A stretch of DNA of 6,962 bases from Nitrospinota bacterium (GTDB lineage Bacteria > Tectomicrobia > Entotheonellia > J063), in contig RFHZ01000899.1 in NCBI GenBank assembly GCA_003696125.1, positions 1-6,962 on the forward strand. The letters are read 5' to 3'. The notes under the pieces were generated by a model. That model saw only the letters and a program-made list of their open reading frames with translations, did no database searches and was not told the origin of the DNA. Below, piece after piece: positions 2,166 through 6,805 of this stretch (its first letter is position 1; each line of letters starts with the position of its first letter). The translations under genes were made by a program, and so were the position numbers.

Positions 2166-3083
2166 ATGAGCGAACACGAGACACTTATGCCGGAATATTC
2201 CCACATTATTCCCGATTTCACCACGTTTCTCCAGAGCCTGGAGCGGCCCCTCCCCGTGCATCTGCGGGTGAATACCTTAAAGGTTGCACGGGAGCGCTTC
2301 TTAGAACTGGCGCAAAAAAAGGGGTACGAGCTCAAACCGATCCCCTGGTACCCGGACGCCTTTCTCGCCCTGAACCTCGAGTCTCCTGGTACCACGCTCG
2401 AGTATTTCCTCGGGTATTACTATCCCCAGGGCTTGAGCTCGATGATTCCGCCACTGCTATTGGATCCGCAGCCAGAAGAGACGGTACTCGATCTCTGCGC
2501 CGCTCCCGGGGGAAAGACCTCTCAGTTGGCCCAACTCATGCAAAACCGGGGACTCATCGTTGCCAACGACATCACCATGCACCGTCTGCGAAGCCTGAAG
2601 GCGAATCTGGAACGACTCGGGATCCTGAACACCCTCACCACGCAATACCATGGACAGAACTTCCCGACCCGTTTCCGCTTCGATCGTGTCCTGGTCGATG
2701 CTCCCTGTTCCGGAAGCGGCACCTACCGGGGAAAACAGGGAGAGCAGGGCATAGAGAGACCGGCCTGGCTGATTCGCCGGCTCAGCAAGCTGCAAAAGCA
2801 GCTTATCGTAAGGGCCTTTGATCTGTTAAAACCGGGTGGATGCCTGGTCTACTCTACCTGCACCTATGCCCCGGAAGAGAATGAGGAGGTGATTGCCCAT
2901 CTGCTGCAAACCCGGGAAGACGCCGTCCTGGAAGAGATTCAGCTCCCCTTTCCTCATGCCACCGGGCTGACCGACTGGCAGGGGAAAGCGTATCCTGAAG
3001 CACTCAAACGCTGTGTACGTGTCTATCCACATCAACTCGACTCCTGGGGATTCTTCTATGCCAAGATTACTCGTCCCAGATGA
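2166..3083 (+). CDS. RsmF/NSUN-type RNA (cytosine-C5) methyltransferase
   Basis: This 305-residue protein should transfer a methyl group from SAM to carbon 5 of cytosine in rRNA or tRNA. It has an N-terminal segment with the family's LRVNTLK, then a Rossmann domain: VLDLCAAPGGKTSQ SAM-binding motif I (from residue 107), DAPCSGSG (178-185) with C181, and YSTCTYAPEENE (from 229) with C232. In the Fmu/RsmB group the second cysteine is the attacking nucleophile and the first helps product release; both are kept. The protein ends at SWGFFYAK plus a few residues, where the methyltransferase domain normally ends, so the C-terminal RNA-binding part of RsmF is missing and seems to be the separate gene at 3991. 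ATG 2166 lacks a strong Shine-Dalgarno sequence; Met8 (2187) is an alternative. The last 39 bases form the left copy of a direct repeat. RsmF is the closest guess, but the target base is unknown. Confidence 0.88.
   Translation: MSEHETLMPEYSHIIPDFTTFLQSLERPLPVHLRVNTLKVARERFLELAQKKGYELKPIPWYPDAFLALNLESPGTTLEYFLGYYYPQGLSSMIPPLLLDPQPEETVLDLCAAPGGKTSQLAQLMQNRGLIVANDITMHRLRSLKANLERLGILNTLTTQYHGQNFPTRFRFDRVLVDAPCSGSGTYRGKQGEQGIERPAWLIRRLSKLQKQLIVRAFDLLKPGGCLVYSTCTYAPEENEEVIAHLLQTREDAVLEEIQLPFPHATGLTDWQGKAYPEALKRCVRVYPHQLDSWGFFYAKITRPR
3045..3083 (+). repeat. Left copy of 39-bp direct repeat flanking the toxin-antitoxin-like block
   Basis: It matches 3978-4016 at 38 of 39 positions; the one difference is A at 3066 against G at 3999. 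The repeat begins TGGGGATTCTTCTATG and ends CCCAGATGA. It holds the last 12 codons and TGA stop of the methyltransferase gene, and also, one frame over, an ATG identical to the start of the PUA-like gene. Homology ends abruptly on both sides (C3044 against T3977, A3084 against G4017). Confidence 0.95.
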
Positions 3084-3099
3084 ATCGAAAGATGATTGA
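3058..3099 (+). pseudogene. Stub of the PUA-like gene's start, left behind at the left repeat
   Basis: ATG at 3058 opens a 13-codon frame, MPRLLVPDESKDD, ending at TGA 3097-3099. Its first nine residues are identical to the start of the protein encoded from 3991, after which it diverges at the repeat boundary. It is best read as the duplicated 5' end of that gene and is unlikely to be a functional peptide. Confidence 0.7.
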
Positions 3100-3124
3100 C
3101 ACCCGCCTGACCATACGCTATCCT
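3096..3124 (+). promoter_or_regulatory. Promoter of the toxin-antitoxin-like pair
   Basis: A perfect TTGACA (3096-3101) lies 17 bases from TATCCT (3119-3124). It starts 12 bases inside the inserted block, so the cassette brings its own promoter. Transcription would start near 3131. An inverted repeat GTGAT/ATCAC (3136-3140 and 3152-3156, 11 bases apart) lies just downstream of the predicted start, where an autorepressing antitoxin could bind. That operator is only a guess. Confidence 0.6.
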
Positions 3125-3207
3125 TTTGCAGATCTGTGATAGCGAAACACAATCACGAAGAACCTCTATTTACCTTATCTCCATATCTCTAGCAGAGAGG
3201 AATACGG

Positions 3208-3474
3208 ATGTTACGATGCGTAACGGTGAAGTTAGAACTCCCTGCTGAAGTCCTCCATAATCTTCATGATGAGGACATCGCCGCAAAAGCAAAAGAAGCC
3301 TTTATCATGGAGTTACTCCGAGAACATCGACTATCACAGGGGAAAGCTGCTGAACTCCTTGGGATAGACCGCCATTGTCTCTTTGAACTCATGGGGAAAT
3401 ATCACATTCCTGTGATCGATCTCACACCTGAAGAGCTGGCAGAGGAGTTGCAGCAGCCCTTCCCTAAACCTTAA
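3208..3474 (+). CDS. UPF0175-family small protein, likely antitoxin of the PIN-domain partner
   Basis: This 88-residue protein matches the UPF0175 pattern: an N-terminal beta strand with VKLELPAEVL (residues 7-16), a helix AAKAKEAFIMELLREH (25-40), then a helix-turn-helix-like LSQGKAAELLGID (42-54), continuing through FELMGKYHIP (59-68) to an acidic tail with EELAEEL. UPF0175 genes are commonly found directly upstream of DUF3368 PIN genes and are regarded as antitoxins that bind the nuclease and may repress their own promoter; neither activity is shown here. ATG 3208 has AGAGGAA at 3196-3202 as its ribosome binding site. The toxin-like gene starts 16 bases after the stop. Composition is AT-richer than the neighbours, in line with recent acquisition. 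Length is normal for the family and I see no damage. Confidence 0.8.
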   Translation: MLRCVTVKLELPAEVLHNLHDEDIAAKAKEAFIMELLREHRLSQGKAAELLGIDRHCLFELMGKYHIPVIDLTPEELAEELQQPFPKP

Positions 3475-3490
3475 GAAATACCGTGCAGAC

Positions 3491-3973
3491 ATGAGCATTG
3501 TTTCTGACTCTGGCCCTATCCTCTCTTTTGCCCGAGCAGATCATTTAGACCTCCTGCGAGAAGTTGTCCGTGCTTTGATTATCCCTGAAGCGGTTTATGA
3601 AGATATCGTTATTCAAGGTGCCGGGAAACCTGGAGCCGGCGAAGTGCAACAAGCAACCTGGATTCGGTGTGAACGGGTACAGGACAGATCGCTGGTTAAT
3701 CAGCTCCCTTCGAAACTCCATCTGGGAGAACGTGAGGCCCTCGCCCTGGCTAAAGAGCGGGGCTGTATGTTACTGATTGATGAATACGAGGCGAGAAAAG
3801 AAGCGCTTCGACAGAATATAAAGCACTTTGGGAGTCTCAGGGTGCTCAAGGAGGCCAAGGATCGTGGAATTATCCAAGAGATCAAACCGGTCCTCGACGC
3901 CTTTATCGCTTCTGGAACCTATATCAGTTCCTCTCTCTATTCTGCATTCCTCCGGGAAGTAGATGAAGCATAA
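3491..3973 (+). CDS. DUF3368-family PIN-domain protein, likely ribonuclease toxin
   Basis: PIN domains are metal-dependent nucleases; as toxins they cleave RNA when not held by their antitoxin. This 160-residue protein starts with the hallmark VSDSGPILSFARADHLDLL, giving first acidic residue D6. It continues with IIPEAVYEDIV (E37 or D38), LGEREALALAKERG with E82 in the conserved GExEA position, LLIDEYEARKEA with D97 and R102, and the DUF3368 tail GSLRVLKEAKDRGIIQEIKP followed by the final helices. All expected acidic positions are present and the length is normal, so the nuclease looks intact. No strong ribosome binding site precedes ATG 3491. Translation may depend on coupling to the upstream antitoxin-like gene 16 bases away, as is common in such pairs. 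Its stop lies 17 bases before the next gene, so readthrough from this operon may now drive the PUA-like gene. The toxin role is inferred from family and pairing. Confidence 0.82.
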   Translation: MSIVSDSGPILSFARADHLDLLREVVRALIIPEAVYEDIVIQGAGKPGAGEVQQATWIRCERVQDRSLVNQLPSKLHLGEREALALAKERGCMLLIDEYEARKEALRQNIKHFGSLRVLKEAKDRGIIQEIKPVLDAFIASGTYISSSLYSAFLREVDEA

Positions 3974-3977
3974 ACAT

Positions 3978-4016
3978 TGGGGATTCTTCTATGCCAAGGT
4001 TACTCGTCCCAGATGA
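3978..4016 (+). repeat. Right copy of 39-bp direct repeat
   Basis: This is the partner of 3045-3083, 933 bases downstream, with G at 3999 in place of A. It supplies the ATG (3991) and first codons of the PUA-like gene, and its GGGGA at 3979-3983 is a usable ribosome binding site seven bases before that ATG. In the other frame it still spells the methyltransferase C-terminus, SWGFFYAK-type residues and a TGA stop, now without a gene in front of it. Confidence 0.95.
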
Positions 4017-4458
4017 GAAGAGAGCCATCGTGGCCGAACTGGTCACCCGCTTCGGCTTTCCACCGGACCTCTTCGATCCCTACCTCTTCCTGGAACAGGG
4101 GAGAAGTATCTGGGTTCTCCGTCAAACCCCTTACCTGGAAGAGGTACTCACCGTTGTGCAGCGACGCGTGGAAACGGCAGGACTCCGCTTGCTGCGCCGC
4201 ATCCAGACACAGTGGAAACCGACGACCTACGGCCTGCAACTCTTTGGCCCGTACGCTACCCGGAATATCGTGACGCTAAACGACGCTGAAGTGCGTATCC
4301 TCTTTACTGAGGGGAGGGTCAGAGGCCCTTTTGCCCTGGAAGAGGGGTACGTGATCATCAACTCATCCCTTGGCGTCCTCGGCTGTGGTCTCTACCGGGG
4401 GGAGACGCTCCGTTCCCAGATCCCTCGACCGCGTAGCCGTCTGGTGACCTCGTTCTGA
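3991..4458 (+). CDS. RsmF C-terminal-like PUA-type RNA-binding protein, split from its methyltransferase
   Basis: I do not recognise this 155-residue protein as a named gene, but its plan resembles the part that follows the catalytic domain in RsmF-type methyltransferases. It has an opening helical segment (KRAIVAELVTRFGFPPDLF), a WVLRQTP strand, TTYGLQLFGPYATRNIVTLND, and a final EEGYVIINSSLGVLGCGLY then LRSQIPRPRSRLV, like the Gly-rich closing strands of the RsmF PUA-like domain. It carries no SAM-binding or catalytic motif. A reasonable inference is that it binds RNA and works with the methyltransferase at 2166. Before the cassette arrived the two genes would have overlapped by 26 bases and probably been translationally coupled. 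Its start lies in the right repeat copy. Its last 96 bases overlap the convergent TrmJ-type gene, and the well-conserved-looking end of this protein suggests that this frame is the constrained one. Confidence 0.65.
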   Translation: MPRLLVPDEKRAIVAELVTRFGFPPDLFDPYLFLEQGRSIWVLRQTPYLEEVLTVVQRRVETAGLRLLRRIQTQWKPTTYGLQLFGPYATRNIVTLNDAEVRILFTEGRVRGPFALEEGYVIINSSLGVLGCGLYRGETLRSQIPRPRSRLVTSF

Positions 4459-5178
4459 ATACCAGCGGACCTGCCGGATAATCCCGCGTAAGATACTGAC
4501 CTCACGAGAGGTAAGGCCGGCACGACCGAACAGCCGTCGCAGTGCCCGCATGATCCGCTGTGGATTCTGGGGATCGAGGAAACCGATTTGCAGCAAGAAA
4601 TCCTGGAGATCGGCGTACATCTGCTCCACCTGCACCGTATCGGCCGGAACCATGCACGAAGCTGGGGGGATAGACTCTTGAGCGCAGGCAGCATAGAGCT
4701 CGTAGCACAACACCATGACCGCCTGTGCCAGGTTCAAAGACGGGAAGGCTTCTGAGGAGGGGATACGGACCAGCAGGTGGCAGAGATCAAGGTGTTCGTT
4801 ACACAATCCGCTCCGTTCCGGCCCAAAGACCAGCGCCACCCGATTGGTTCGCGCCGTAGCCAGCACCCTGGGAACGATCTCCCGGGGGGTATAGACCGGA
4901 AAGCGCTCCTTCCCCGGACGACAGGAGGTTCCTATCACCAGTCCCATCGGGGCAATCGCAGCTTCCAGGGAAGAAAAAGTTTGTGCTTTTTCCAGAATGT
5001 CTGCGCCGTTAAGGGCCATGCGCACCGCTTCTTGACCGCGAAAATTCTCCGGAGGATTTACCAGAACGAGGCGTGAAAGACCCATGTTCTTCATGGCACG
5101 AGCCACGGCCCCGATGTTTCCCGGATGCTGGGGTTCTACCAGCACCACCTGGATGTTGGTGAGAAGGGACTGATCCAC
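4363..5178 (-). CDS. trmJ: TrmJ-type tRNA (cytidine/uridine-2'-O-)-methyltransferase, SpoU (SPOUT) family
   Basis: TrmJ methylates the 2'-hydroxyl of position 32 in the tRNA anticodon loop, using SAM bound in a trefoil knot. The three SPOUT motifs are visible (numbering from GTG 5178, 271 residues): NIGAVARAMKNMG (21-33) with R27, LVFGPERSGL (116-125), and IPSSEAFPSLNLAQAV (139-154). The C-terminal FLLQIGFLD, RALRRLFGRAGL and EVSILRGIIRQV stretch is typical of TrmJ. I prefer GTG 5178 because AAGGAG (5184-5189) lies five bases upstream; ATG 5199 would add seven residues and has no clear ribosome binding site. Family similarity ends near WY at residues 239-240, and the final 31 residues are read entirely from the strand opposite the PUA-like gene, so the natural stop seems to have been lost. 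It shares a promoter region with the divergent DinB gene. A tRNA or rRNA relative with another target is possible. Confidence 0.87.
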   Translation of the reverse strand: MDQSLLTNIQVVLVEPQHPGNIGAVARAMKNMGLSRLVLVNPPENFRGQEAVRMALNGADILEKAQTFSSLEAAIAPMGLVIGTSCRPGKERFPVYTPREIVPRVLATARTNRVALVFGPERSGLCNEHLDLCHLLVRIPSSEAFPSLNLAQAVMVLCYELYAACAQESIPPASCMVPADTVQVEQMYADLQDFLLQIGFLDPQNPQRIMRALRRLFGRAGLTSREVSILRGIIRQVRWYSERGHQTATRSRDLGTERLPPVETTAEDAKG

Positions 5179-5947: not shown

Positions 5948-6805
5948 ATGCCTGATGCGGGTCACCAGAGTGATGAACGGCTCTTCCCCCAAAAGCAGTG
6001 GCGAAAACAGGATCAATATCTTCTCTTCCTCCGTCAACTCTTTGCTTACCGGTACGCCGAAACCCATGTCTATGGGAAAAGAGTGCTGGACCTCGGTTGT
6101 GGTGCCGGTCATGGCATTACCCTGCTCGCCCAGAAGGCCCGCATGGCGGTGGGGATGGATAAAGATCTCTCTGGCCTGCTCTTTGCCCGGCAACAGGCCG
6201 GCTCAGCTCTACCTCTCTCCTTTGTCGCCGCCAGCGGATACGATCTCCCTTTTGCCGAGCACTCCTTTGATCTTGTCCTCTCCTTCCAGGTTCTTGAACA
6301 CCTGCATCACCCCCAGACCTACCTGCAGGCCATCAAACGGATCCTTACCCCCACCGGAATGGCCATCTTTACCACCCCGAACAGGCGTTTACGCCTCCTC
6401 CCCTTCCAGTCCCCCTGGAATCACTATCATGTCCGCGAATACGACTGGAGAGCATTGCGTCGTCTGCTGCACACCACTTTTCCCCGGGTCCAGCTCCTCG
6501 GAATCACGGCCACAGCAGACATTGTTGAACTGGAGAGGCGACGGGTGCAGCAGGACCCCTGGCTGGTGTACGGGACCTGTCTCCGTAACTCCCTTGAAAA
6601 TCTGCTTCCTTCCTCCCTTACCCGGCGACTTGACGCCTTCCTCGAACAGCGACAAAGCCAGAAGGTTTCTCGTCTCCGGGCCATCCAATCCTCCTTCTCC
6701 CGGTCTTATACGGTATCAGACTACCGGGTTACGGAGGATGATCTGAAGGGATGTCTGGATCTCCTCGCCTGCTGCTGGCCGCAGACGGAAAATGCCACCG
6801 GATAA
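5948..6805 (+). CDS. Class I SAM-dependent methyltransferase (Methyltransf_11-like)
   Basis: This 285-residue protein has a Rossmann-type SAM-binding domain: RVLDLGCGAGHG motif I (VLDLGCG at 46-52), acidic D71 ending the second strand in VGMDKD for the SAM ribose, YDLPFAEHSFDLVLSFQVLEHLHHP with the typical VLEH at 115-118, and IFTTPNR (TTPN 142-145) on a later strand. After PWNHYHVREYD comes a C-terminal part rich in Arg and Leu that I cannot assign. The family methylates small molecules, lipids, sugars or quinones, so the substrate is open. I chose ATG 5948 with AAGGA (5936-5940) seven bases upstream; the frame can be opened from a TTG at 5891, but those residues do not look like part of the domain. 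It follows DinB by 183 bases, and I see no convincing promoter of its own. Confidence 0.87.
   Translation: MPDAGHQSDERLFPQKQWRKQDQYLLFLRQLFAYRYAETHVYGKRVLDLGCGAGHGITLLAQKARMAVGMDKDLSGLLFARQQAGSALPLSFVAASGYDLPFAEHSFDLVLSFQVLEHLHHPQTYLQAIKRILTPTGMAIFTTPNRRLRLLPFQSPWNHYHVREYDWRALRRLLHTTFPRVQLLGITATADIVELERRRVQQDPWLVYGTCLRNSLENLLPSSLTRRLDAFLEQRQSQKVSRLRAIQSSFSRSYTVSDYRVTEDDLKGCLDLLACCWPQTENATG

Follow-up and report, generated by a model that had tools for sequence, protein, structure and literature searches.

The window, by which we mean the whole stretch of 6,962 nucleotides analysed here, is contig C305 of a 4.18-Mb genome assembled in 990 contigs, with an estimated contamination of about 8%. 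A pair of small genes lies in it between two larger neighbours and is bracketed by a direct repeat, with the following arrangement:

2166–3083, forward strand: RsmB/F-type RNA m5C methyltransferase gene, the left neighbour, 305 residues (Pfam PF01189, 2.8e-56; NCBIfam TIGR00446, 4e-79; frame check).
3045–3083, forward strand: left repeat copy, the putative target duplication; last 12 codons and stop of the methyltransferase gene.
3084–3977, forward strand: inserted cassette, 894 bp, 48.0% GC, set off by GC from its flanks and lacking a terminal inverted repeat.
3096–3124, forward strand: promoter-like site, TTGACA-17-TATCCT (1 found, 1.2 expected in shuffled sequence).
3208–3474, forward strand: UPF0175 (COG2886-type) gene, 88 residues, predicted HTH antitoxin (Pfam PF03683, 1.4e-15).
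3491–3973, forward strand: DUF3368 (COG2405-type) gene, 160 residues, predicted PIN-like toxin (Pfam PF11848, 4.2e-12).
3978–4016, forward strand: right repeat copy, the putative target duplication; contains GGGGA, which resembles a Shine-Dalgarno sequence, and the opening 26 nt of the PUA-like gene.
3991–4458, forward strand: PUA-like gene, the right neighbour, 155 residues; its homologues follow the methyltransferase or are fused to it.

The PUA-like protein has no match in Pfam, and its label rests on gene context and on the homologues fused to the methyltransferase. At two loci, L006 and L009, a single long reading frame covers both the methyltransferase and the PUA-like regions; thus the two genes look like the halves of a split RsmF-type enzyme. 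No relative of the PUA-like protein was detected among viral contigs at the sensitivity used. The window also encodes a class-III aminotransferase and, on the opposite strand, a TrmJ-type methyltransferase. The gene for the latter (reverse strand) and the PUA-like gene (forward strand) overlap tail to tail by 96 bp at 4363–4458.

The 894-bp insert has a GC content of 48.0%, against 54.5–62.4% in flanking windows of equal size, and a GC3 of 46–47%, against 64–71% in the flanks. These values bear out the lower GC between the repeat copies that was remarked upon in the preliminary description, and they mark the cassette as foreign. Its content is also as first described: the list of open reading frames and the Pfam matches agree that it carries nothing but the UPF0175–DUF3368 pair, and no recombinase is encoded between 3084 and 3977 or elsewhere in the window. 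The two genes lie on the same strand, 16 nt apart, with the small gene first, an order that is kept in most homologous loci. Both Pfam matches exceed the curated cut-offs. Among 21 homologues of the DUF3368 protein E80 and D97 are invariant and E38 is nearly so; these acidic residues match the expectation for a PIN-like nuclease, a fold that is predicted here, the single-sequence structure models being poor. Matches in the PDB to pentatricopeptide repeats look like an artefact of repeats or composition and were set aside. The pair is predicted to be a type II, PIN-type toxin–antitoxin (TA) module.

A promoter belonging to the cassette had also been proposed. The TTGACA site is indeed present on the forward strand, but a promoter role for it is no better than plausible, because the scan yields no excess of such sites over shuffled sequence. 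Hallmarks of insertion sequences and MITEs, that is, terminal inverted repeats and a short target duplication, were not found at this cassette, for which the duplication is 39 bp; its two 40-nt ends share no inverted word longer than 4 nt (P = 0.98). Relatives of the toxin were absent from viral contigs and phage records at the sensitivity used, and its plasmid matches are distant, with at most 36% identity among the matches listed.

The two repeat copies agree at 38 of 39 positions, differing by a single A/G mismatch at repeat position 22. Such a repeat pair would be expected by chance about 2e-14 times in the window and about 7e-9 times in the whole genome. When up to three mismatches are allowed in its 29-nt core, exactly two sites are found in the 4.18-Mb genome, both of them here. 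The bracketing of the pair by the repeat is thereby confirmed, with no third copy genome-wide. An exact 20-mer scan of a collection of genome contigs gave two matches; the one examined, at L032, lies in an unrelated gene, is consistent with chance and was rejected. The repeat consists of pieces of both neighbouring genes and is far longer than transposon duplications. The frame check agrees with the earlier statement that the left copy ends the methyltransferase gene and the right copy starts the PUA-like gene. The left copy is also a remnant of the start of the PUA-like gene, in which an ATG at 3058 leads to a stop after 13 codons.

Removal of 3084–4016 in silico leaves both proteins unchanged, with their genes overlapping by 26 nt. 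The same two genes, with GTG starts, overlap by 26 nt in the distant genomes represented by L004, L062 and L064, and in each of these the 39-nt stretch leading up to the methyltransferase stop aligns with the repeat without gaps. At L003, where an insert is likewise absent, the overlap is 32 nt. Because three distant genomes show exactly the 26-nt overlap with nothing between the genes, the insert is judged to be the derived state. The empty junction is deduced from distant genomes; the search for close relatives covered four other genomes of the source phylum, all from another family. The deletion reconstruction and these relatives thus agree in upholding the proposal that the cassette was inserted where the two genes overlapped and that both genes were rebuilt, and the empty site with its 26-base overlap is seen as a gene arrangement in the three genomes.

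The mismatch had been ascribed either to a copy brought in with the element or to later drift. The guanine of the right copy is synonymous in the PUA-like frame (AGA to AGG) and, read in the methyltransferase frame, would replace Ile by Val; the relatives have A (L004) or C (L062 and L064) at this position. The mismatch is most simply read as drift in the right copy after the methyltransferase frame had ceased to constrain it, since G is synonymous in the sole frame still encoded there and L004 has A, although C is found in L062 and L064.

A search for further copies of the 39-bp sequence beside other UPF0175–DUF3368 pairs of the same genome had been proposed, and none was found; the two other pairs, on contigs C207 and C553, lie in different contexts and lack a repeat bracket by the strict test defined below. 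The repeat-rich contig C207 (L030) carries a 67-bp repeat with 93% identity at 1044–1110 and 2014–2080, and a 62-bp repeat in three copies, so placed that repeats occur beside the UPF0175–DUF3368 pair and around a lone antitoxin-like reading frame of 79 residues.

For a survey of other pairs, DUF3368 homologues were drawn from 386 genomes near to or far from the source and from 386 genomes of the G326 phylum, probably cyanobacteria to judge by GCGATCGC motifs and gene content. The regions retrieved span about 3.5–13.5 kb, and random regions of the same genomes served as controls. In a loose test 12 of 38 and 15 of 64 pairs were bracketed by repeats, against 2–5% of control intervals. Since interspersed and low-complexity repeats passed this test, it was replaced by a strict one, which admits repeats with two copies only in the fetched region (for the window, in the whole genome), a length of at least 28 bp, at least 82% identity, both gaps no longer than 200 bp, and passage through a dinucleotide entropy filter. 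With these thresholds, which were set after an initial inspection of the results, and in a sample dominated by one phylum, strict brackets surround 12 of 96 UPF0175–DUF3368 pairs, as against 7 of 12,678 random intervals and 17 of 7,830 intervals beside TA pairs. The 12 represent about 10 independent insertions in several lineages: the window, L074, L081, L187, L188, L195, L203, L208/L209/L214 (a single insertion in three congeners), L221 and L231. The weakest is L221 (41 bp, 83%). The remaining 84 pairs have no strict bracket and may be older, decayed or otherwise inserted. Bracketing repeats at L069, L086, L091, L098 and L190 were discarded as interspersed, low-complexity or shared promoter sequence. 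On the reverse strand of L080 (5334–8295), three DUF3368 genes stand in tandem with repeats of several hundred base pairs, at about 1.1 kb per unit.

The duplicated pieces in the strict set are parts of ordinary local genes, mutually unrelated and 28–203 bp long, and the copies in cases other than the window differ by 3–18%. Typically the gene is intact at one copy, the other copy being left over as a remnant. The ends of genes are duplicated at L203 (189 bp, 3' end of pyruvate:ferredoxin oxidoreductase) and L081 (203 bp, the 3' end of a gene), and the beginnings at L074 (165–175 bp, 5' end of an alpha/beta hydrolase gene), L195 (about 122 bp, 5' end of a gene with an FGE-sulfatase domain), L187 (94 bp, codons 1–14 of a Uma2 gene plus the region upstream) and the L208 group (135 bp, codons 1–8 of a gene for 164 residues, again with the region upstream). 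The duplication at L188 (28–29 bp) resembles that of the window in spanning the ends of two neighbouring genes, here the facing 3' ends of a RecQ gene and of another gene. An empty site is present for L231 within the same genome: a paralogue at L175:1300–1548 is collinear with the left flank, one repeat copy and the right flank, and has no cassette. For L074, a search of its family for an empty site gave only distant homologues.

The limits of the moved unit can be judged from cassettes that resemble one another. Those at L189, L190, L191 and L194 are 81–88% identical to the cassette of L187 and lie at other sites; the similarity begins 11–22 bp inside the left boundary and stops 29–83 bp before the right one. 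Since it is confined within the limits defined by the repeats, the moved unit would be essentially the TA operon and its upstream region. At L193, from another genus, the L187 insertion itself is present, including the right flank. Strict-set cassettes measure 802–986 bp around the gene pair, and because they are so consistently minimal, the earlier suggestion of a remnant of a larger element finds no support. Neither common ends nor terminal inverted repeats were found across the cassettes (L208 has one inverted word of 9 nt), and the cassette genes examined included no recombinase.

A scan for repeats that took no account of gene content gave a similar picture. The control sequence, 1.59 Mb in all, contains 29 two-copy repeats around stretches of 400–2,200 bp; 16 of these repeats have both copies within genes of at least 120 codons. 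The remaining clear cassettes, with repeats longer than 100 bp, contain mainly PIN-type TA pairs: a MazE-like/PIN pair at L238 (7478–8549; 139-bp repeat, 91%, a DUF2887 gene having the right copy in its 3' end), a UPF0175–DUF3368 pair at L261 (217 bp), a PIN gene at L280 (about 300–313 bp, part of the repeat having a third partial copy nearby) and an 83-residue protein with a PIN protein at L291 (207 bp). The strict-test matches in random intervals within 200 bp appear to stem from a single repeat, that of L238; no other control repeat outside coding paralogues has a fitting size. The fifth cassette, L271, contains a metallophosphoesterase gene between 116-bp direct repeats (93%; 4772–4887 and 6351–6466), and its left copy lies at the end of a 433-residue gene with a weak phage-integrase match. 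L271 may be a genuine att-type insertion.

It is probable that, in the window, a minimal predicted TA operon was inserted at the 26-nt overlap of a split RsmF-type methyltransferase and in doing so duplicated 39 bp of its target. The best reading of the cassettes as a group is insertion with a long and variable target duplication, the pattern associated with restriction-modification (RM) genes and here found with TA modules. No dedicated recombinase would be involved. Instead, a small TA-bearing fragment may be taken up at a break whose ends are widely offset, so that their filling-in would duplicate the target; alternatively, in line with the template switch allowed for in the preliminary description, replication might change template and return upstream of its point of departure. 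Either process, the filling-in of offset nicks or template switching, would naturally produce a long duplication, and the data fit both. Selection would have retained those insertions that left the neighbours functional, and for neighbours at an overlapping junction to stay functional, the duplication must span the overlap. Once in place, the TA pair would be hard to lose because of addiction.

The principal alternative, which we regard as unlikely, is homologous integration of the Campbell type, in which a circle bearing the TA pair and the same junction from a related strain recombines with the recipient, so that one repeat is the donor copy and the other the recipient copy. The 3–18% divergence between repeat copies at other loci could reflect the difference between donor and recipient, and two direct repeats would allow homologous excision and re-entry. 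Such a scheme requires a prior insertion at the same junction in the donor, and therefore moves the first event elsewhere; moreover, the target is a different one each time, and no target sequence is common to related cassettes that lie at other sites.

Far less probable is a site-specific integrative element, with the 39 bp as an att core and an integrase acting in trans on a non-autonomous cassette; site-specific recombination was one of the routes first put forward. The length of the repeat and its gene-restoring position do resemble att sites, and one control repeat, that of L271, lies at the end of a gene with a weak integrase-domain match. Against this, the genome holds no third copy of the 39 bp and the window no recombinase, the other two pairs of the source genome occur in different contexts without this repeat, and comparable cassettes have repeats of unrelated sequence, from 28 to more than 200 bp in length, and no termini in common. 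The lack of shared termini and of any recombinase seen, together with the unrelated targets, argues against transposase action as well as att-type integration. A chimeric contig joining two contexts at a short repeat might be suspected in so fragmented and partly contaminated an assembly, yet it is scarcely credible, as the two flanks are parts of a single split RsmF-type operon, the junction of which can be rebuilt exactly, the repeat copies differ by one base, and the same architecture occurs within large contigs of 4–5 Mb, for example at L187 and L195.

Stand-alone TA pairs vary between close strains, usually without a transposase. In a comparison of Synechocystis 6803 and 6714, at least 12 TA insertion or deletion events were recorded, one of them the absence of a pair from an operon that is conserved in other respects (PMC4963859); unlike the present work, that comparison, in the part relevant here, contains no analysis of junctions or repeats. 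UPF0175 (COG2886) has been described as a predicted HTH antitoxin of PIN toxins (PMC2701414) and COG2405 as PIN-like (PMC6929052). The window contains the same two families in the same order, and the sections of those papers on this family leave its mode of insertion, with which we are concerned, undescribed.

The closest parallels come from other units. RM genes have been reported to insert with long, variable target duplications, of the order of 100 bp (PMC3874152; Nobusato 2000, as cited in PMC1643837). They share with the cassettes described here an addiction-type unit, the lack of a transposase and a long, variable direct target duplication; the present cases differ in that the unit is a TA pair, the duplications are 28–203 bp, and the events recur in one TA family and in several lineages. 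A search of the open-access literature yielded one published TA pair with this architecture, the ParE/ParD-like pair of Microcystis aeruginosa PCC 7806, which lies between two identical 152-bp direct repeats (PMC7935541). That pair is also tightly bracketed, at 147 bp upstream and 120 bp downstream, but it belongs to another toxin family and is intergenic, and in the account of the locus given there the repeats are not interpreted as a target duplication. Because the search covered open-access papers, the novelty of long target duplication at TA pairs is provisional.

The occurrence of the same type of scar around related cassettes in unrelated bacteria suggests that TA modules are able to spread although they carry no transposase. 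More tentatively, TA operons, at least those of the PIN type, might be minimal mobile units that use one widespread and undescribed route, duplicating tens to hundreds of base pairs across unrelated lineages; the toxin, or host repair and replication proteins, could possibly assist such a route. Overlapping genes illustrate the point with particular clarity, since an insertion there can leave both genes intact only by way of a long duplication. The finding links TA modules to an insertion mode proposed for RM genes, and with a duplication scar and a defined cassette in hand, the entry of TA modules into new sites becomes testable by genome comparison and in the laboratory.
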